A DNA stretch of 64,000 bases from Leptolyngbya sp. FACHB-8 (GTDB lineage Bacteria > Cyanobacteriota > Cyanobacteriia > Elainellales > Elainellaceae). The notes under the pieces were generated by a model, which had not been told where the DNA came from, did not search any database, and saw only the letters and a program-made list of their open reading frames with translations. How positions within the stretch are numbered: position 1 is the stretch's first letter; every line of letters begins with the position of its first letter. The stretch spans positions 1 through 64,000 of the forward strand of contig NZ_JACJOO010000068.1 of the NCBI RefSeq assembly GCF_014695575.1. The letters run 5' to 3'. Below, in pieces: positions 18,971 to 28,188 of the stretch. The position numbers were made by a program, and so were the translations under genes.

Positions 18971-19020
18971 TAACCTCAATTCGGAATAAGCTAAAAGGCC
19001 CTTAACCGGAACTGAGGTTA
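18971..19020. mobile_element. Family G element, hairpin-less copy 3
   Basis: TAACCTCAATTCGGAATAAG, a short spacer, and CCTTAACCGGAACTGAGGTTA form the two ends of family G with both internal hairpins missing. The final TTA is the stop codon of the minus-strand gene 19018-19986. Confidence 0.75.
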
Positions 19021-19986
19021 GCCTAAGGGTGGGTTGGGTGCTGTCTGGGGCAATGGATTGGAGGGATTTGCAGGCAGGGGTTCCGCAGGCAGGGGTTGAG
19101 AGGATGGTGAGGATGGAACTGTAGAGTTGGCCGGAGCCTGAGTTGCTGGGGCTACCGAAGGAGCTGCCACCGAAGGAGCTACCGCCGGAGGAGCTGTCGC
19201 TGGAGGAGGAGCTGAGGGGGCTGTCGGGGTTGTGGCTGCGGCAGGTGCTGTAGGCGATGGCGCTACGCAGGAACCCGGCGGTGGTGCCTGGGTCAGAACC
19301 GTCACAGCGCCGTAGCCTGTTGTGGTGAGGAGCTGCCGAATAGCGAGTTCAGCACGGGTATTGGCTTCCTGCAAAATACCTTCGTTACAGGCAGCGGAAA
19401 CAACCTGTTGAAGGGTTTGTTGTTGCGCTAGTTGTTGCAGTTCGGGAGCTGCATCGGGGCCAAGGCCGAGGAAGCCGCGATCGTAATCGTACACCTGAGA
19501 GCGGTTGACATCAATTTTGCTATCTAAAATCTTGGGGGGTGGCAACTGAATGGTGAGGGCGTTGTTGTCGGCCAGTTGCACGTTCTCGCGCGTTATTTGA
19601 GAGAGGTCAATTCCCGCCCTCACTTCTCCATGGGCGATGTAGAGGAGAGTAGTGGAACCGACCCTATATCCAGCAAAGGTGCGATCGCGCGATGTTGGCA
19701 CCACGGCCTGCATCGTAAACTTTGCTGTCGTTAACTCACTCATGCCCTGCACCTGCTGAACCACGACGGACTGCACATCCACCTTGGGCTCAGACTCCTG
19801 CACAGGGTTCTGCAACGGGGGTAGAACTCGCCTTACTCCCCCTAATAGGCTCGCTCCATCCCGCAATAGACCAGAACCGATCAGCAACCCCGTAATGACC
19901 AGCCCTCCCGTCAGCATGAGTGACAGATTGTAGAAGAAACGAGAAGCCGGATGGGAGGAGTTTGGCGGGCGGGAATTCTGTTCCAT
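19018..19986 (-). CDS. DUF4230-like membrane-anchored protein
   Basis: The 322-residue protein starts MEQNSRPPNSSH, then has one membrane helix (about 18-42: NLSLMLTGGLVITGLLIGSG). A domain of about 150 residues follows that resembles DUF4230 (SVVVQQVQGMSELTTAKFTM, GEVRAGIDLSQI, LPPPKILDSKIDVNRSQVYD). The last 80 residues are Pro/Ala-rich, low complexity and probably disordered (APSPTAPAAATTPTAPSAPP). It should sit with the domain outside the cytoplasm, or in the lumen. Its stop codon TAA is also the first three bases of a family G element, so the element may have changed the C terminus. Function unknown. Confidence 0.8.
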   Translation of the reverse strand: MEQNSRPPNSSHPASRFFYNLSLMLTGGLVITGLLIGSGLLRDGASLLGGVRRVLPPLQNPVQESEPKVDVQSVVVQQVQGMSELTTAKFTMQAVVPTSRDRTFAGYRVGSTTLLYIAHGEVRAGIDLSQITRENVQLADNNALTIQLPPPKILDSKIDVNRSQVYDYDRGFLGLGPDAAPELQQLAQQQTLQQVVSAACNEGILQEANTRAELAIRQLLTTTGYGAVTVLTQAPPPGSCVAPSPTAPAAATTPTAPSAPPPATAPPAVAPSVAAPSVAPATQAPANSTVPSSPSSQPLPAEPLPANPSNPLPQTAPNPPLG

Positions 19987-20137: not shown

Positions 20138-20479
20138 ATGTTTAAGTCCACCACCCGCCATATTCGTATCTTTTCTGCCGAAATCCAGAACGACGAACTG
20201 GTGCCCGTCCCTGACAAGCTCACGTTGGATGTCGACCCAGACAATGAGCTGAATTGGAATGATACGGCGTTGCAAGCGGTCTATCATAAATTTGACGAGC
20301 TGGTGGCCTCCTATGACGGAGAAGACCTGAACGACTACAACCTCCGTCGTATTGGCTCAGATCTAGAGCATTTTGTGCGATCGCTCCTCCACGAGGGCCA
20401 AATCACTTATAACCTACAGAGCCGTGTCCGTAACTATAGTCTCGGCATGCCTCGGGTTGCGGAAGACATCAACGTCTAA
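20138..20479 (+). CDS. ndhM: NAD(P)H-quinone oxidoreductase subunit M
   Basis: The product (113 residues) matches NdhM: MFKSTTRHIRIFSAEIQNDE, LTLDVDPDNELNWN, YDGEDLNDYNLRRIGSDLEH and FVRSLLHEGQITYNLQSRV. NdhM is a peripheral, oxygenic-phototroph-specific subunit of the thylakoid NDH-1 complex that joins cyclic electron flow and CO2 uptake. It is divergent from the DUF4230 gene, with about 150 bp between. Confidence 0.95.
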   Translation: MFKSTTRHIRIFSAEIQNDELVPVPDKLTLDVDPDNELNWNDTALQAVYHKFDELVASYDGEDLNDYNLRRIGSDLEHFVRSLLHEGQITYNLQSRVRNYSLGMPRVAEDINV

Positions 20480-20544: not shown

Positions 20545-20804
20545 TTGTTTTTTCAAGACTATGCAGAGTTCATCGTTCTAGGGCTTATGGAAGTCACTAT
20601 CCATGGGCATTCTGGTAAATGAGTTCGGTGCTATCCACCACATCTACCAGAATGTTCAAACCCGATTGTCGTGCAATACATCCCAAAAAAATTCAATCCT
20701 ATTGATAGAAAACCGATCTTCGCAGGAAATTAGCGCCATCTTGAAAGGGCTAGGCTATCCTGATAAGACCGATTCCTGTGGTATTCAGGTGCCACGCCCG
20801 GTTC

Positions 20805-23132
20805 ATGCTGTATTGCCCCAATCCAACTTGCCAAACCCTTAACCTTGAGGGAACTCGTATTTGCCAGCAGTGTCATTCGCCGCTGCCCTATCGTTACCTA
20901 TGGGCCGCAGGTCTGACATCCCCTGCACCCGAAGCAGGCCGTTTGCTGGGCGATCGCTACCTTAGCAAAGGTAACGGTATCTTCCTCGATACCCTACCCG
21001 GCTATCCTCCCATCGCCAGCATTGAAGAGTTGCCAGATTTTCTTCTGGCTTATCTGCGACTTGCGGCCCTGCGGCTGCACATCCCCCTGGCCTATGACTT
21101 GATTCCTCAAGACCCAACCTCCGGGAACGCAAACTTGCTGTTGCTGGAGGAAGCCGCCCTCTGGCAACCTGAGCGTTCGGTCAGCAGCTCTAAAGGAAAT
21201 CCCTCAACAGTTGCTGTGCTTCCGGCGATCACGCCACTCTGGGAAAAGGTATCCGGACGACGGCAACTGTCCTGGCTCTGGCAAATCGCGAATTTGTGGG
21301 AACCGATGGTCCGTGAGGGAGTCGGCTCTACATTACTCACACCAGAGTTGCTGCGGGTTGAGGGCTGCCTTTTACGCATCTTAGAATTACGCTCAGACCA
21401 CCCCGATCAGCCTGCTACATTGGCCCATTTAGGGCAGCTTTGGCAAACCTGGCAACGCAGCGCTCAACCTGACATTGCAGCATTTCTCAATACGTTAAGT
21501 GCAGGCCTGCTGGAGGGTAGAATCAACAGCTCGATCGCCCTGATCGAAGAACTCGACCAGCAGATTGCGATCGCCAATCGAGGTAAGCCACGCCACATTC
21601 ACATTGCGACTCAGACTGATCAGGGGCCAACGCGATCGCGGAATGAAGATGCGTGCTACCCCGCCAGCGGCACACTTCAATCTGAGATTTTACAAAGTGG
21701 GCAACCCTCCAGCCCGCTGGCTATTGTGTGTGACGGGATCGGCGGGCATCAGGGCGGCGATGTGGCATCTAATTTGGCCATCGCAGCTGTTTACCAGAAG
21801 CTTCAGAACTTACCCGTCGTCACCCTGAGCCCTGAAGCAATCGCCTATGCCATCGATGAGAGTGTGGCGATCGCCAATGACCGCATCAGCCAGCGCAATG
21901 ACGACGAGCAGCGGCAAGACCGCCAGCGCATGGGCACAACCCTGGTTATGGGACTGATCAAACATCAGGAGCTTTATGTCGGCCATGTGGGGGACAGCCG
22001 TGCGTATTGGATCACCCCCTGGGGGTGCCACCAGATTACCCTTGACGATGACGTGGCATCTCGCCAAATGCGGCTGGGTTACAACTTCTACCGGCAGGCT
22101 CTACAGCACCCCAATGCAGGGTCTCTGGTGCAAGCTCTGGGGATGAGTGGCTCCAGCCTGTTACACCCAACCGTACAACGGCTGCTGATTGATGAGGACA
22201 GTGTGCTGTTGTTCTGCTCGGATGGGCTCAGTGATGGCGATCGCGTCGAGGAGTATTGGGATACCAATCTCCTGCCGGTGTTGCGAGGGCAGGCCGATTT
22301 AGTGGGCGTCAGTCAACGGCTGGTTGAGCTTGCAAACACCCTCAATGGTCACGACAACGTTACCGTTGCTGTCGTTCATTACCAGGTACCCGATGCATCC
22401 GCAGATCGGGAGCTGATTACGAATTATATGAGTTCGACTTTAGGCGACGTGCCGATTCCAGTGGCCAAGGAGCCTCAAGCAGTTTTGTCTGCTCCGTCGC
22501 CGACTACGACCCCAACGGCTACCCAGGTCGTTGCGCCCACAGCGACAGTAGTCGAGCCGGCCCCTCGTCGCCCCGTGCCGCTGTTTCTCAGCCTGGTCTT
22601 TGCTACTGTGCTGGTAGGGGTGCTGGCCTATCTGCTCCTACCCATATTGAGGGGGGCCGGTTTCCTGGCATCTGATCCATCTCCTACATCTACACCTCAG
22701 CCATCACCAAGCTCGACAGCTCCCTCTCCTTTAGCCCCATCTGCTGTGATTCAGGTTGGTCGCGTAAATACGAGCAATCCTGCACCCCTGGGGCTATTTC
22801 CACAACCTCAATTAGGCGATGCTGCGGGGAAATCCATCACACCTGGGACTGTGCTTCAAGTCATTGAGAAGCCCTCTATCGAAGGCACACCCTGGCTACG
22901 GGTGCAGGTGTGCTCTCTGGGTTCCGAATCGACGGCTGCCCCTCCTCCAACGGAAGTGGCCAGCCTAACCCTTGTGCCACAACTTGGAGAAGAAGGATGG
23001 GTGCAAGAAGCTGAGCTGTTGCCCCGAGCCATGCCGGTAGCAACAGAAGCGATCGCTGGCTCACCCTGCGGCCCCACCGCTACCCCCCTCTCACCTCAAA
23101 CCCCGACCCCAACTCCTCCTCCTCTCGGCTAG
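20805..23132 (+). CDS. PP2C-type Ser/Thr phosphatase with zinc ribbon and membrane segment
   Basis: The protein has 775 residues from MLYCPNPTCQ. Cys4, Cys9, Cys20 and Cys23 form a zinc ribbon. A helical region (about 40-260) is followed by a PP2C domain (about 263-528). Its metal-binding residues are present: RNEDACYP (Glu281, Asp282), VCDGIGGHQGG (Asp310), YVGHVGDSRAY (Asp397), LFCSDGLSDGD (Asp473) and GHDNVT (Asp517). A Pro-rich linker, one membrane helix (about 590-615, FLSLVFATVLVGVLAYLLLP) and a C-terminal SH3-like segment follow. It should dephosphorylate Ser/Thr in the cytoplasm. The next genes carry FHA domains, which read phospho-Thr, so it may reset that signal. An upstream start would add nine residues. 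Confidence 0.9.
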   Translation: MLYCPNPTCQTLNLEGTRICQQCHSPLPYRYLWAAGLTSPAPEAGRLLGDRYLSKGNGIFLDTLPGYPPIASIEELPDFLLAYLRLAALRLHIPLAYDLIPQDPTSGNANLLLLEEAALWQPERSVSSSKGNPSTVAVLPAITPLWEKVSGRRQLSWLWQIANLWEPMVREGVGSTLLTPELLRVEGCLLRILELRSDHPDQPATLAHLGQLWQTWQRSAQPDIAAFLNTLSAGLLEGRINSSIALIEELDQQIAIANRGKPRHIHIATQTDQGPTRSRNEDACYPASGTLQSEILQSGQPSSPLAIVCDGIGGHQGGDVASNLAIAAVYQKLQNLPVVTLSPEAIAYAIDESVAIANDRISQRNDDEQRQDRQRMGTTLVMGLIKHQELYVGHVGDSRAYWITPWGCHQITLDDDVASRQMRLGYNFYRQALQHPNAGSLVQALGMSGSSLLHPTVQRLLIDEDSVLLFCSDGLSDGDRVEEYWDTNLLPVLRGQADLVGVSQRLVELANTLNGHDNVTVAVVHYQVPDASADRELITNYMSSTLGDVPIPVAKEPQAVLSAPSPTTTPTATQVVAPTATVVEPAPRRPVPLFLSLVFATVLVGVLAYLLLPILRGAGFLASDPSPTSTPQPSPSSTAPSPLAPSAVIQVGRVNTSNPAPLGLFPQPQLGDAAGKSITPGTVLQVIEKPSIEGTPWLRVQVCSLGSESTAAPPPTEVASLTLVPQLGEEGWVQEAELLPRAMPVATEAIAGSPCGPTATPLSPQTPTPTPPPLG

Positions 23133-23144
23133 AGTTCTATCAAC

Positions 23145-23185
23145 TTATTGCAAAAGCGCTGATGTCACCGGCGTTTTTGCAATAA
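23145..23185 (+). terminator. Hairpin after PP2C gene
   Basis: TTATTGCAAAAGCGC and GCGTTTTTGCAATAA pair over 15 bp, 12 bp after the stop codon. It may act as a weak terminator or a stabilising hairpin between the PP2C and CHAT-FHA genes. Confidence 0.65.
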
Positions 23186-23357
23186 TTGCGACTGAACCTT
23201 ACAGGAAGCGCAAAAGTAGCGCAAACTGAAGCAAACTCTTCATTACTGAAGAGCGCTACCGGGATTCTATGGATTTCGGGAAAGAACCGGATAAACTAGA
23301 GGGTAATCCGAATCATCGTCTGTTTTCGACGGCTGAGCAGTCCACAGTCTTCCCTTC

Positions 23358-24971
23358 ATGCCTGAAAATCCTTGTTTAAGACTGGCGATCGACCGCCTCA
23401 ATGCCACCGCCCAGTCCAACCACTACGCGATTTGGGTGATTCAGGCACCCCATCAGGCGGGCTATGCTCATAACGATCAAACCTGGACTGAACCTCTAAA
23501 TAAATCCTGGCAAGCATGGCAGGCTTTGTTTTCGTCACAACCATTACCCGACGTTCAAAATTTACCCCGGTTGCAATTTCCGACCCCTGAGGGCAATGAG
23601 GAAATTCCAACCAACTACACCAGTCGCTTGATGCAATACCTGGGCATTATGCTCTGGGAGTGGCTGTTTGATGGACCGATTCAGAATAGTCTGGATCAGA
23701 GTCGAGGCATTTCCATGGGGATGGAACAACCCCTGCGGCTCCGTCTGGAAATTCGAGATCCGAACCTGGTGACGATTCCCTGGGAAATTATGCAATCTCG
23801 CCCGGGGCAACGGGCTATGGGTCTGCACCATGAGCAATTACTGTTTAGCCGTACGACCTACGACGTTGATCCCCTAGTGCTGGGGGAGGAGGATCGGAGC
23901 TTAAACATTTTGCTGGTGCAAGGGGTCAAGGCCCTCGGCACAGAGTCGCCCTTTGAGGTAGAGAAGCCACTGAACCTGGAAGCCGAGGCGGAGGCGATCG
24001 CCCAGGCCTTCCGGAGCGGCAGCGACATCTCTATCGGCGCAAACTGGCGCAATTCTGCCCACTGTGAAGTCGATATTTTGGTACAGCCCACCCCGGCAGA
24101 GTTGACGCGCTATTTAGAACGCAAACACTATAACGTATTGTTCTACAGCGGCCACGGGATGCCAGGGCCAGATGGTGGACTGCTCTATCTCCGCCCCGAT
24201 GCCACGTTAAATGGCACCGAACTGGCCCAATTGCTGACCCGCTGTCGTGTCAAGCTAGCCGTGTTCAATGCCTGCTGGGGGGCGCAGCCCGACATGCGGA
24301 ATGGGGCATTTATTCCTCGCAGCAGTTTAGCCGAGGTGCTCATTCACCATGGTGTTCCGGCAGTGCTGGGGATGCGCGACACCATTGCCGATAACGAAGC
24401 TTTGAGCTTTATTCAGCGGTTTGCGCGATCGCTCTCCGATCGCTCTCCCATTGATGCGGCCGTTGCTGTGGCCCGGCAACACTTACTTACGCTCTACCGC
24501 TTTAATTCCCCAGCCTGGAGTTTGCCGGTGCTGTATATGCACCCAGAATTTAACGGCGAGCTCCTCAGGCCAGTGCATGATTCTGCGACGACGCAGATGC
24601 CTCCCGACACGCCATCGCACATGATGGGTTTGCAAATTCCTCCGGCTTATTTGCGATCGCTTGAGACCATTGAAACTCCCTGGCCCATCCAGGGTGGCCG
24701 GATGCGCATTGGCTCCCTCGATAACAATGACCTGGTCTTAAGGGGGGCAGGGGTTTCTCGCCGCCACGCCGAAATTTTCTATCGGGATGCTGCGGATGGA
24801 GGAGAGATGCAGTCCGGCTACTTCCTACGAGATTTTTCGCGATTTGGAACGTTGATGCTACGGTCGGACAACCGATGGTATAAGATTCATCAACAGGAAG
24901 TTCCCCTTAGAAGCCGCACCCAACTGTGTTTTGGAACTCACAAAGTTGAGTTTCTCGTTGACGAGATGTAA
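23358..24971 (+). CDS. CHAT-domain caspase-like protease with C-terminal FHA domain
   Basis: The protein has 537 residues. Residues about 120-400 form a CHAT (caspase HetF-associated) domain: LEIRDPNLVTIPWEIMQ, the histidine motif FYSGHG (His266) and the cysteine motif FNACWG (Cys306), so the catalytic dyad is intact. Residues about 445-535 form an FHA domain with RIGSLDNNDLVL (Arg450), GVSRRHAEI (Ser467, Arg468, His470) and FGT (as in the usual N-G-T). Residues 1-115 are an unassigned N-terminal region. There is no signal peptide. It probably is a cytoplasmic peptidase recruited by phospho-Thr peptides. It is 225 bp after the PP2C gene. Substrate unknown. Confidence 0.9.
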   Translation: MPENPCLRLAIDRLNATAQSNHYAIWVIQAPHQAGYAHNDQTWTEPLNKSWQAWQALFSSQPLPDVQNLPRLQFPTPEGNEEIPTNYTSRLMQYLGIMLWEWLFDGPIQNSLDQSRGISMGMEQPLRLRLEIRDPNLVTIPWEIMQSRPGQRAMGLHHEQLLFSRTTYDVDPLVLGEEDRSLNILLVQGVKALGTESPFEVEKPLNLEAEAEAIAQAFRSGSDISIGANWRNSAHCEVDILVQPTPAELTRYLERKHYNVLFYSGHGMPGPDGGLLYLRPDATLNGTELAQLLTRCRVKLAVFNACWGAQPDMRNGAFIPRSSLAEVLIHHGVPAVLGMRDTIADNEALSFIQRFARSLSDRSPIDAAVAVARQHLLTLYRFNSPAWSLPVLYMHPEFNGELLRPVHDSATTQMPPDTPSHMMGLQIPPAYLRSLETIETPWPIQGGRMRIGSLDNNDLVLRGAGVSRRHAEIFYRDAADGGEMQSGYFLRDFSRFGTLMLRSDNRWYKIHQQEVPLRSRTQLCFGTHKVEFLVDEM

Positions 24972-25102
24972 GACTCGGATTAATTCTATAAGTTACTAAA
25001 TCGGGTGATTTCGAGAAAATTTTTCAGCCAGTTGCGGAACTGCCACAGAAAACCCTGTAGTCAGGGATGGCGATAACGCCCGGCGCATTAGAAATTTGGA
25101 GC

Positions 25103-25723
25103 ATGGTCCCTATGGCAAGCGATTCTGTCCGTCCCCTATCGATTCCATCTCAGGCTGTAGCAGAGTTAGAACTGATTGAGCTACTGCTCGATCAAACCTC
25201 CCCCACCTACCCCTGGAATCCTGCTGACCCCGATGTATGGTCTTACTGTGAAGCCCTGGAGCAGGAAATCGCCGATACGTGGTCGACAGAAGAGTTTCAG
25301 CCCTATGTAAGCAGCCTATCTGACCAATTTGACCAACTTTGGGAAACGGCTTCACCCGCTGTTGATTTGGGCGTTATTTTCCCAACTGAGATCTTCCAGC
25401 GGTTCTCCGCTCAGGTTCCCAGCAACTTGCTGGAAGGGATTGTGCGTCGTGCTCGTCAGGTATTGGCTGATAACCTGGCGCTGGCAGACCAACTGGTACT
25501 TTGCGTTCAAGATCTGCTTCCTACCTGGGCCGATGATGACCTCTATGTTCTGGCTCGTCCCTTTGCGGTCGCCATGCGGAGTGGAGATTCCACTATTTTG
25601 GAAGGCACTCTGCAATCTGTACGCTGCGAAGCTTGGGAGGCGCTCTCGGAGATTGAGCAGGCTCGGCTTAGCTTGGCGATCGCCCGCTACGTCCTCAATC
25701 AACAGTCTCATCCTGGCGCCTAA
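25103..25723 (+). CDS. Conserved hypothetical protein of the FHA/CHAT cluster
   Basis: The product is about 206 residues from ATG 25103 (MVPMASDSVRPLS); ATGs at 25067 and 25112 are alternatives. It is soluble, acidic and mostly helical, with WNPADPDVWSYCEALEQEIA near the start and LLPTWADDDLYVLARPFAVA in the second half. I recognise no domain. It lies between the CHAT-FHA and FHA-PrsW genes, 131 bp after the first, and converges with the second. A role with its neighbours is only inference. Confidence 0.65.
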   Translation: MVPMASDSVRPLSIPSQAVAELELIELLLDQTSPTYPWNPADPDVWSYCEALEQEIADTWSTEEFQPYVSSLSDQFDQLWETASPAVDLGVIFPTEIFQRFSAQVPSNLLEGIVRRARQVLADNLALADQLVLCVQDLLPTWADDDLYVLARPFAVAMRSGDSTILEGTLQSVRCEAWEALSEIEQARLSLAIARYVLNQQSHPGA

Positions 25724-25738
25724 AATACTGGCCTCATG

Positions 25739-25796
25739 AACCCCCATTACTGCTGCAGCGACGTTGCTTTTCGTTCCTACAACAGCAATGGGGGTT
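25739..25796 (+). terminator. Terminator-like hairpin
   Basis: AACCCCCATTACTGCTG and CAGCAATGGGGGTT pair with one bulge, followed by TTCC, 15 bp after the stop codon. The loop is long (about 25 bases). Confidence 0.65.
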
Positions 25797-25806
25797 TTCC
25801 ATTTGG

Positions 25807-25863
25807 CAGGATTTACGCGTTGGTGGGGTGTGCGACGCACACCCCACCAACGCGTAAATCCTG
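25807..25863. repeat. 57-bp palindrome with CAGGATTTAC ends
   Basis: CAGGATTTACGCGTTGGTGG and its perfect complement flank a GGGTGTGCGACGCACACCC tip. The ends resemble the CAGGACTTACGCA family. It fills the gap between two convergent genes and stops 1 bp before the stop codon of the FHA-PrsW gene. Confidence 0.88.
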
Positions 25864-25864
25864 A

Positions 25865-27175
25865 TTAATCCGACGAAGGGGGCTTGAATCGAGTCGCAAA
25901 ATTATTCGCACGATCAGGGGAGAGCGATCGCGCCTGTAAGATAGCGGCTCCCAAGAACGCGTAGGAAAGGCTACCTACCACTGCCAGAGCAATGGGACTG
26001 ACCAAACCACTGACATTCCAGAGAGTATGGAGAAGGGCAGCTGTGAGTAAGCCGGTGCCCAGAATGCGAGGGGTGTGCGATCGCTTTAATACACTCAAGC
26101 CAATGAAATACCCGAAGGTTCCGCTATAGGCCAAGTGGCCAGAAATCGACCCCAGTACTCGGGCAATCAATACTTGCATCCCCGACAATTGCTCTAGCTC
26201 TGAGCCACTTTGAATCATCGAGGGGACATAGTAGCCAAGGCTCTCAAACAGGGTAAAACCAACAGCAGCGGCCGTCCCCAGTAGGATACCGTCAAGGGGT
26301 TCCCAGACACCAATTTGAGCCGCGAGGGAGCGAGGGGACGAGGGCGTAGAGGGGCGCAGAGCCCAACCAATGAGCCAGAATAGGAGAATAGGTAACGCTT
26401 TCAGCAGTTCCTCCATAACTCCTGTACCAATAAACATTTGGAGGAGAAACCAGAGAGGCTGTTGGGCAGCGGTACTGGGATTAGCACTGCCCGGTAGCCA
26501 GACACGGAACACCTGTATAAACCCATTCAGTACAGGGCTACGCAGAATGCCAGCCATTAGCAGAGCCGTCACGACAGGTAACCAGAGCGGCTTATGCTTG
26601 CCACACAACTGGTACACCACGTAGTAAGCAGCCAGAGCTAGATAAAGGGCCAGAACGCCATTAAAGAGACCCACATTTCCTACAGCCATGAAGAGCACAA
26701 CGGCTACTGTCACAGTGATGATGCCGGGAATCAAATAAGCTTTATGCTCCAGATCACCCGCCGTAGAGAAGATGGGGAAGAGTTGGCTAAAGGTGACCGG
26801 GTCGCTAACGGGTCTTTGGACTGGCGTAGGAACTGGAGCATTCGCTTCTGTAAATACAAATTGCGGACCGTGGTGACCTAAACGGATGCGATCACCCACT
26901 CTCAACATCCGGCATCCTTGCAGCCGATGACCATTTAAGTACGTACCATTGGTACTGTTGAGGTCGCAAAGCTGCCAGCCCTCGGAATCGGAACTAAATG
27001 TCAAACGAGCATGGAAGCGAGAAACGCCACCATGCTCGAAGGGTAGAGAAATTTGACAGCTTGGGTCGCGCCCAATTAAAAAATCTCTTTGGGTCGCTAG
27101 GGGATATAGAGTGGCCGTTCCTTCAGCTGGATAGACCTGCTGCAAAACCGCTGAGGTCGGTTCGGAGCCAGCCAT
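25865..27175 (-). CDS. FHA-domain fused to PrsW-type intramembrane metalloprotease
   Basis: The protein has 436 residues. Residues about 20-105 form an FHA domain: FLIGRDPSC (Arg36), GVSRFHARL (Ser52, Arg53, His55) and NSTNGTYLNG (Asn73-Gly77), all the phospho-Thr-binding residues. Residues about 140-412 have 8-9 membrane helices with PrsW motifs: MEELLK (Glu255, Glu256), FTLFESLGYY (Glu311), SISGHLAY (His347) and LLHTLWN (His383). PrsW proteases cut membrane proteins; in Bacillus PrsW cleaves the anti-sigma factor RsiW. The fusion suggests a protease controlled by phospho-Thr recognition in the cytoplasm. It converges with the hypothetical gene at 25103. Confidence 0.92.
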   Translation of the reverse strand: MAGSEPTSAVLQQVYPAEGTATLYPLATQRDFLIGRDPSCQISLPFEHGGVSRFHARLTFSSDSEGWQLCDLNSTNGTYLNGHRLQGCRMLRVGDRIRLGHHGPQFVFTEANAPVPTPVQRPVSDPVTFSQLFPIFSTAGDLEHKAYLIPGIITVTVAVVLFMAVGNVGLFNGVLALYLALAAYYVVYQLCGKHKPLWLPVVTALLMAGILRSPVLNGFIQVFRVWLPGSANPSTAAQQPLWFLLQMFIGTGVMEELLKALPILLFWLIGWALRPSTPSSPRSLAAQIGVWEPLDGILLGTAAAVGFTLFESLGYYVPSMIQSGSELEQLSGMQVLIARVLGSISGHLAYSGTFGYFIGLSVLKRSHTPRILGTGLLTAALLHTLWNVSGLVSPIALAVVGSLSYAFLGAAILQARSLSPDRANNFATRFKPPSSD

Positions 27176-27202
27176 ACCGCCTCCCCAATGTGAAGGGTTG
27201 GT

Positions 27203-27400
27203 TTACTGGTTTGCGCGGGCGTCTTGCACCGCTGCCAAAAAGCTACCAATGGTGACCGGAATGCTAAGGGCCAGAATGACAGAGGTAACGGGGGCTCCGA
27301 GCTGAGGTATCCCAGAAGATAACTCAAATACAGAACCAACGGCGGCGATCGCTGCCACGCAGGAAACCGCTAAAAACAGGCCACTTTTTGGGGTCATCAT
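27203..27400 (-). CDS. Small two-helix membrane protein
   Basis: The 65-residue product starts MMTPKSGLFLAVSCVAAIAA and has a second helix (PVTSVILALSIPVTIGSFLA). It ends DARANQ. It lies upstream of the FHA-PrsW gene on the same strand, 27 bp before it, and probably shares a transcript. I think homologues are common in cyanobacteria, without known function. ATG is preferred, but a shorter start at the second Met is possible. Confidence 0.75.
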   Translation of the reverse strand: MMTPKSGLFLAVSCVAAIAAVGSVFELSSGIPQLGAPVTSVILALSIPVTIGSFLAAVQDARANQ

Positions 27401-27579: not shown

Positions 27580-28188
27580 TTACTCTTCGACGGGTTTAAC
27601 CGCTTGCATTGAGAAGCCGTGCTTGTCCAATTCCTGATTGAGAGCCAGGGCATTGTCTACCCGATCGACGAACATGACACCGTTCAGGTGATCCATTTCG
27701 TGCTGAATTACTCGGGCCAGCAAATCTGTTGCCACAAGTTTCTGGGGCCGCCCGTTCTCATCCTTGTAGGACACTTCAATCTCGTCAGGACGGGTCACAT
27801 CCAGAAATACACCGGGAATGCTGAGACAGCCCTCCTGAATCACACATTGTTCCTGACTCGCACGAACAATGGTGGGGTTAATCATAATCAGGGGAGGCTT
27901 GGCGGGATCATCAAGCTCGATATCTACCACCAACAGTTGCTTGTTAACACCGACCTGAGGCGCAGCTAAACCAATGCCATCGTTGCTGTACATGGTTTGC
28001 AGCATATCCCGCGCCAACTGACGAATTTCGTTGTCAATTTTTGTGATGCGCTTGGCGGGCTGACGCAACACGCGATCGCCCAAATAGTGCAGTTCTAAAG
28101 GCGGTTTTGCCAGCTTTTTCTTCTCGACTAGAATTTGAGCAGTCATGAGCAGTTGCGCCAGGTTGTCATCTTTCTCTACACTTTCCAT
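27580..28188 (-). CDS. def: Peptide deformylase
   Basis: The 202-residue protein has all three deformylase motifs: GIGLAAPQVG, EGCLSIPG and QHEMDHLNG, with Cys and both His as metal ligands. It removes the formyl group from the N-terminal Met of new proteins. The N-terminal 25 residues (MESVEKDDNLAQLLMTAQIL) are longer than in many homologues. No clear ribosome-binding site supports this start, so an internal ATG at 28146 is possible. No fmt lies next to it. Confidence 0.95.
   Translation of the reverse strand: MESVEKDDNLAQLLMTAQILVEKKKLAKPPLELHYLGDRVLRQPAKRITKIDNEIRQLARDMLQTMYSNDGIGLAAPQVGVNKQLLVVDIELDDPAKPPLIMINPTIVRASQEQCVIQEGCLSIPGVFLDVTRPDEIEVSYKDENGRPQKLVATDLLARVIQHEMDHLNGVMFVDRVDNALALNQELDKHGFSMQAVKPVEE

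Follow-up and report, generated by a model that had tools for sequence, protein, structure and literature searches.

A HetF-like CHAT-FHA protein and its near-obligate helical partner in a phospho-signalling gene neighbourhood of cyanobacteria

In the 6.9 Mb genome of Leptolyngbya sp. FACHB-8, for which a scan of sequenced genomes gave filamentous cyanobacteria as the best named relatives, the window studied here (the whole stretch of 64,000 nucleotides, positions 1 to 64,000 of contig NZ_JACJOO010000068.1) encodes a protein combining a CHAT and an FHA domain, hereafter CHAT-FHA, next to a helical protein of 218 residues belonging to no described family. CHAT-FHA and this helical partner form a near-obligate and probably functional pair, which is the core of a gene group also comprising a membrane PP2C phosphatase and an intramembrane protease of the PrsW family fused to an FHA domain (Table 1). 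CHAT-FHA is presumably a HetF-like CHAT protease; no publication joining CHAT and FHA was found in the literature searched, which covers few subscription journals. A preliminary description of the window, made from the DNA alone, had proposed a module of five neighbouring genes, the fifth one encoding a small two-helix membrane protein. All five open reading frames (ORFs) were confirmed, with Pfam assigning PP2C, CHAT plus FHA and PrsW plus FHA, and nothing to the 218-residue protein. The proposal stands as regards a conserved neighbourhood of phospho-signalling and protease genes, but only CHAT-FHA and its partner are near-obligate, the PP2C and FHA-PrsW being found in part of the genomes only and the small membrane protein being near-universal.

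The pairing is supported by two sets of genomes. All five proteins were searched against one set of 117 genomes from the phylum, 49 of them Cyanobacteriia, and counts were read off the search tables, with a threshold of E < 1e-100 for CHAT-FHA. CHAT-FHA was found in 31 genomes, and the partner in the very same 31 and additionally in G005 (both, CHAT alone, partner alone and neither in 31, 0, 1 and 17 genomes, respectively; Fisher p 3e-12, an indicative value as the tree is ignored). Among 289 Cyanobacteriia genomes forming a larger set, for which the two lists were compared by eye, CHAT-FHA is present in 150 and the partner in 151 genomes: 149 contain both, 137 neither and only 3 a single one. 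The sole genome encoding CHAT-FHA without the partner is G263, where the CHAT gene lies at a contig edge. Regarding gene order, for which only loci with enough flanking sequence were counted, giving denominators that differ by gene, the genes of CHAT-FHA and the partner lie side by side in 67 of 74 loci, and in 7 full-flank loci they stand by themselves. In Laspinema the partner gene is located upstream of CHAT rather than downstream, still adjacent, while in about 31 genomes of the larger set the two genes are distant or on different contigs, both being nevertheless kept; likewise, for the five named loci checked that have no partner near CHAT, the partner is encoded elsewhere in the genome in all five cases. 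Given these rearrangements, the pair is poorly explained by inherited synteny alone. Moreover, the protein distances of CHAT-FHA and the partner show the best correlation among all gene pairs (r 0.81). The order of the group is preserved well beyond close relatives and its catalytic residues are retained in the orthologues, so that the observations named in the preliminary description as refuting its proposal were not made. In G005 (locus L069, on G005:C16), a stop-ridden remnant of CHAT-FHA, with a KIHHQEVPL-like tail still visible, lies between the PP2C and partner genes; this locus retains PP2C, partner, PrsW and small protein, only the protease having been lost naturally.

CHAT-FHA contains a CHAT domain at about residues 98-382 (Pfam E 1.5e-21) and an FHA domain at about residues 450-526; no transmembrane (TM) helix was predicted in it, and no tetratricopeptide repeat (TPR) was found with Pfam. 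The His266/Cys306 dyad, already recognised in the preliminary description, proved invariant in 27 of 27 and then in 81 of 81 aligned homologues, and the protein is presumably proteolytic. The nearest curated family of its CHAT part is HetF (NCBIfam NF045509, E 4e-48), although its score of 164 bits is below the equivalog cut-off of 1200, and the His and Cys of HetF align to the same columns as the dyad. CHAT-FHA resembles HetF of Anabaena PCC 7120 (Alr3546), a cyanobacterial CHAT protein, with 31-37% identity across the CHAT region. However, HetF possesses TM and TPR parts (PMC8406250), whereas CHAT-FHA has neither and carries instead an FHA tail, along with a fixed partner gene. Lacking TM and TPR and ending in an FHA domain, it is thus a paralogue of HetF and not HetF itself; judged from sequence, it is a soluble paralogue of this divisome protease. 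A HetF-like protein is the second match in most CHAT-FHA genomes, and the one of this genome (G000:C65:91658-92683) is encoded on this contig too, about 67 kb beyond CHAT-FHA. HetF is located in the divisome (PMC8406250) and can cleave PatU3 (review PMC12288457).

The FHA domain of CHAT-FHA deviates from the usual pattern, which the preliminary description had overlooked. In FHA domains, phosphopeptides are bound by a set of residues consisting of Gly-Arg, Ser, His and Asn-Gly-Thr. In the window copy, Ser453 replaces the phosphate-binding Arg and Phe496 the Asn preceding Gly-Thr; in the family, Gly and Ser are conserved in 81/81 homologues, His in 80/81, Arg in 59/81 and Asn in only 5/81, this last position being aromatic in 74/81. 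The domain is thus non-canonical, with an apparently incomplete set of phospho-Thr-binding residues. In contrast, the FHA domain of FHA-PrsW is canonical, each of the Gly-Arg, Ser, His and Asn-Gly-Thr residues being found in 35-36 of 36 homologues. The preliminary view of both FHA domains as readers of phospho-Thr is therefore not supported, the domain of CHAT-FHA being non-canonical.

The partner is encoded by an ORF that opens at 25067, the start proposed initially (25103) being an internal Met and a candidate start. It is predicted to be all-helical, with an AlphaFold model of moderate quality (pLDDT 74, pTM 0.50). No convincing match was obtained by sequence in Pfam, NCBIfam or PDB, and a Foldseek search of the fold against PDB returned nothing below E 0.5. 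The invariant residues cluster in two motifs, YPWNP and DL.VLARP.A..MR.

The membrane PP2C has a conserved start at 20805 (MLYCPN), a longer GTG start being possible at 20778. It is composed of a 4-Cys prefix, a probable degenerate kinase-like region (about residues 28-257), the PP2C domain (about 263-528), a TM segment (about 597-620) and a C-terminal domain in which the motifs WLxLxVC and GWI, SH3b-like by eye, recur. The PP2C fold is matched and, in agreement with the preliminary description, the metal residues are present, the metal-binding Asp being invariant in 35/35 homologues. The 4-Cys prefix is otherwise known from cyanobacterial kinases. In profile comparisons, the N-terminus including this prefix is collinear with kinases of the same genome over the next ~220 residues, with a probability of 95-97%; the match is weak when the prefix is removed (14-23%, with a reversed control under 1%), and reversed kinases and unrelated families used as controls give at most 2%. 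In the AlphaFold model (pLDDT 86), a small beta lobe is followed by a long helix, a loop and a short hairpin, and then by more helices, which is the order of a kinase. PP2C structures fill the lists of matches in PDB, and in Foldseek viral kinases come after PP2C at E ~0.1. HRD and DFG are absent from this domain, the aligned positions reading GVGSTLL and ILEL. Based on the profile comparison and the topology of the model, the N-terminus is probably a degenerate kinase-like domain. Compared with the cyanobacterial PP2C family (NCBIfam PRK14559, tPphA-like), the protein shares the core with all metal residues and differs by the additional 4-Cys prefix, probable degenerate kinase-like domain, TM segment and SH3b-like motifs. 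Paralogues with the 4-Cys prefix and kinase-like region occur across cyanobacteria, including one in this genome (G000:C74:51233-52831), and the architecture is hence broader than this locus.

The preliminary description had noted that a kinase is missing and suggested that one might travel with the group. There is indeed no active kinase in the cluster, although the PP2C bears the kinase-type prefix and the probable degenerate domain. A travelling Ser/Thr kinase was rejected: only 5 kinase matches were found in 80 loci, all more than 6 kb away, and none of the 28 kinases of the genome is in the cluster. The closest Ser/Thr kinase found along this contig (G000:C65:64889-65662), which also has a 4-Cys prefix, is encoded just past the end of the window, about 40 kb from the cluster.

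FHA-PrsW has a well-defined PrsW domain (Pfam E 6.8e-32), in which the EE, E, H and H motifs noticed earlier are invariant in 24/24 homologues (E255/E256, E292, E311, H347, H383). It scores 23.9 bits against the equivalog of the anti-sigma factor protease (NF033739), for a cut-off of 225. PrsW-FHA fusions have been noted as signalling proteases (PMC3482391), with which it shares the joining of PrsW to an FHA domain that binds phosphopeptides; no description of a gene context with CHAT-FHA, partner and PP2C was found in the literature searched. FHA-PrsW is missing from six genomes with CHAT and occurs without CHAT in five Cyanobacteriia genomes. Its gene, along with those of the small membrane protein and the deformylase, is on the minus strand, convergent on PP2C, CHAT-FHA and partner, and the five genes are therefore not one operon. 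As for the 65-residue membrane protein, it is present in 47 of the 49 Cyanobacteriia genomes with 56-76% identity, usually elsewhere than in the cluster, and no NCBIfam model exists for it. It is a core cyanobacterial protein and hence not a member of the group. Its proposed role as a dedicated PrsW substrate is weakened by this near-universal presence, which includes many genomes without PrsW-FHA.

Table 1. Genes of the CHAT-FHA neighbourhood and their flanks (positions in the window)
Feature	Coordinates	Strand	Remarks
DUF4230 protein	19018-19986		upstream of NdhM; retained close to the cluster in 12 of 80 loci
NdhM (NDH-1 subunit M)	20138..20479	+	conserved housekeeping neighbour upstream, judged non-member
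Membrane PP2C, 775 aa	20805..23132	+	Pfam; frequent partner
CHAT-FHA protein, 537 aa	23358..24971	+	Pfam CHAT+FHA; core member
Helical partner, 218 aa	25067..25723	+	family-less; core member
FHA-PrsW glutamic-type intramembrane protease, 436 aa	25865..27175	-	Pfam; convergent, looser link
Two-helix membrane protein, 65 aa	27203..27400	-	near-universal in cyanobacteria; judged non-member
Peptide deformylase	27580..28188	-	conserved housekeeping neighbour, judged non-member

By analogy with HetF, we propose, with about even confidence for and against, that CHAT-FHA is a HetF-like regulatory protease acting with a dedicated partner, either substrate or regulator, under Ser/Thr phospho-control. 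On the model of HetF and PatU3, the partner would most likely be a substrate or inhibitor, its cleavage by CHAT-FHA being the output, and Ser/Thr phosphorylation would set the place and time of their action. The FHA arm might dock CHAT-FHA onto a phosphorylated or phospho-mimicking partner, and the membrane PP2C would remove the phospho-mark, guided by its probable degenerate kinase-like region and by the sensor-like domain at its C-terminus. In many but not all species, FHA-PrsW could be a parallel FHA-guided protease of the same network, and the pair might be linked to cell division. The bolder version, in which a second widespread HetF-type pathway made of CHAT-FHA and a dedicated substrate is gated by a membrane PP2C carrying a pseudokinase domain, we regard as rather unlikely.

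Several observations weigh against this regulatory reading. Phospho-docking is uncertain, as the FHA domain of CHAT-FHA often lacks the canonical residues and no Thr of the partner is invariant; its sole majority-Thr column, T47, is Thr in only 20 of 30 sequences, leaving the partner unsupported as a phospho-Thr ligand of the FHA domain. In the larger set, G005 and G346, and only these, encode the partner without an intact CHAT-FHA, and its persistence there suggests that it may serve a function independent of CHAT-FHA. Finally, the enzymes supposed to complete the network are not constant neighbours, the PP2C adjoining CHAT in about two thirds of the loci (42 of 64; 20 of 31 genomes) and FHA-PrsW in only half of them (34 of 68; 18 of 31 genomes).

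These last counts bear on a more restrictive explanation, whose probability we place a little short of even, according to which only CHAT-FHA and the partner are linked, and PP2C, PrsW, small protein, NdhM and deformylase merely reflect an ancestral gene order. NdhM and the deformylase, unlikely functional partners, are found near CHAT in 25/57 and 27/63 loci, almost as often as PrsW, and adjacency is hence weak evidence for PrsW; the near-universal small protein and the close PP2C paralogues encoded elsewhere point in the same direction. However, PP2C stays with CHAT and partner in 8 full-flank loci devoid of NdhM and PrsW, the presence of FHA-PrsW is itself associated with CHAT (25 of 31 genomes with CHAT versus 5 of 18 without; p 6e-4, uncorrected for the tree), and phospho-signalling domains are common to PP2C, PrsW-FHA and CHAT-FHA. 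The nature of the pair may also be different from the one we favour: the partner might be a subunit, activator or adaptor of CHAT-FHA, serving its folding, oligomerisation or choice of another target, rather than its substrate, a possibility that we judge doubtful. The near 1:1 co-occurrence and matched divergence are as compatible with a complex as with an enzyme and its substrate, and DL.VLARP.A..MR, located within a predicted helix, would be better understood as an interface than as a cleavage loop. Against an adaptor stand the retention of the partner in the two genomes without intact CHAT and its faster evolution (29-54% identity to the window copy, versus 46-58% for CHAT-FHA).

The preliminary description had suggested a stress, defence or cell-death switch in which phosphorylation gathers proteases at a membrane target; such proteases would kill the cell or trigger a membrane effector. 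CHAT proteases do act in this way elsewhere, as exemplified by the TPR-CHAT of Craspase and by the CHAT proteases that activate gasdermins. CHAT-FHA differs from the former by having neither TPR nor a CRISPR gRAMP neighbour, its conserved neighbours being NdhM, PP2C, PrsW and deformylase, and from the latter by the lack of a gasdermin-type neighbour, no match to the gasdermin family having been obtained for the partner or the neighbouring genes of the window. PADLOC models gave no convincing match (best, a partial BovA, E 0.001). Moreover, the nearest CHAT family is HetF, the context is a housekeeping one, the protein distances of the group track those of NdhM and deformylase, and the group is found in about half of the sampled Cyanobacteriia. 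We thus consider a defence or cell-death switch very improbable; these data are best explained by a group inherited mainly vertically and serving cell physiology, and not by a mobile defence module. The PpkA-PppA-Fha1 threonine phosphorylation pathway of type VI secretion likewise unites PP2C and FHA proteins in one neighbourhood, but the neighbours of the present locus include no active kinase or conserved type VI secretion genes, and its FHA proteins are presumed proteases.

Most of what is known of CHAT proteases comes from immunity, HetF being the one characterised example found in cyanobacterial cell biology, with a defined substrate. CHAT-FHA would add a second such protease, tied to a near-obligate gene partner and present in roughly half of the Cyanobacteriia sampled, making cleavage of this partner directly testable. 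A PP2C that includes a degenerate kinase-like domain would, if confirmed, be an unusual sensor architecture, which may extend to near-universal cyanobacterial paralogues. Were the bolder version above to hold true, cyanobacteria would possess a phosphatase-pseudokinase sensor controlling a caspase-like protease.

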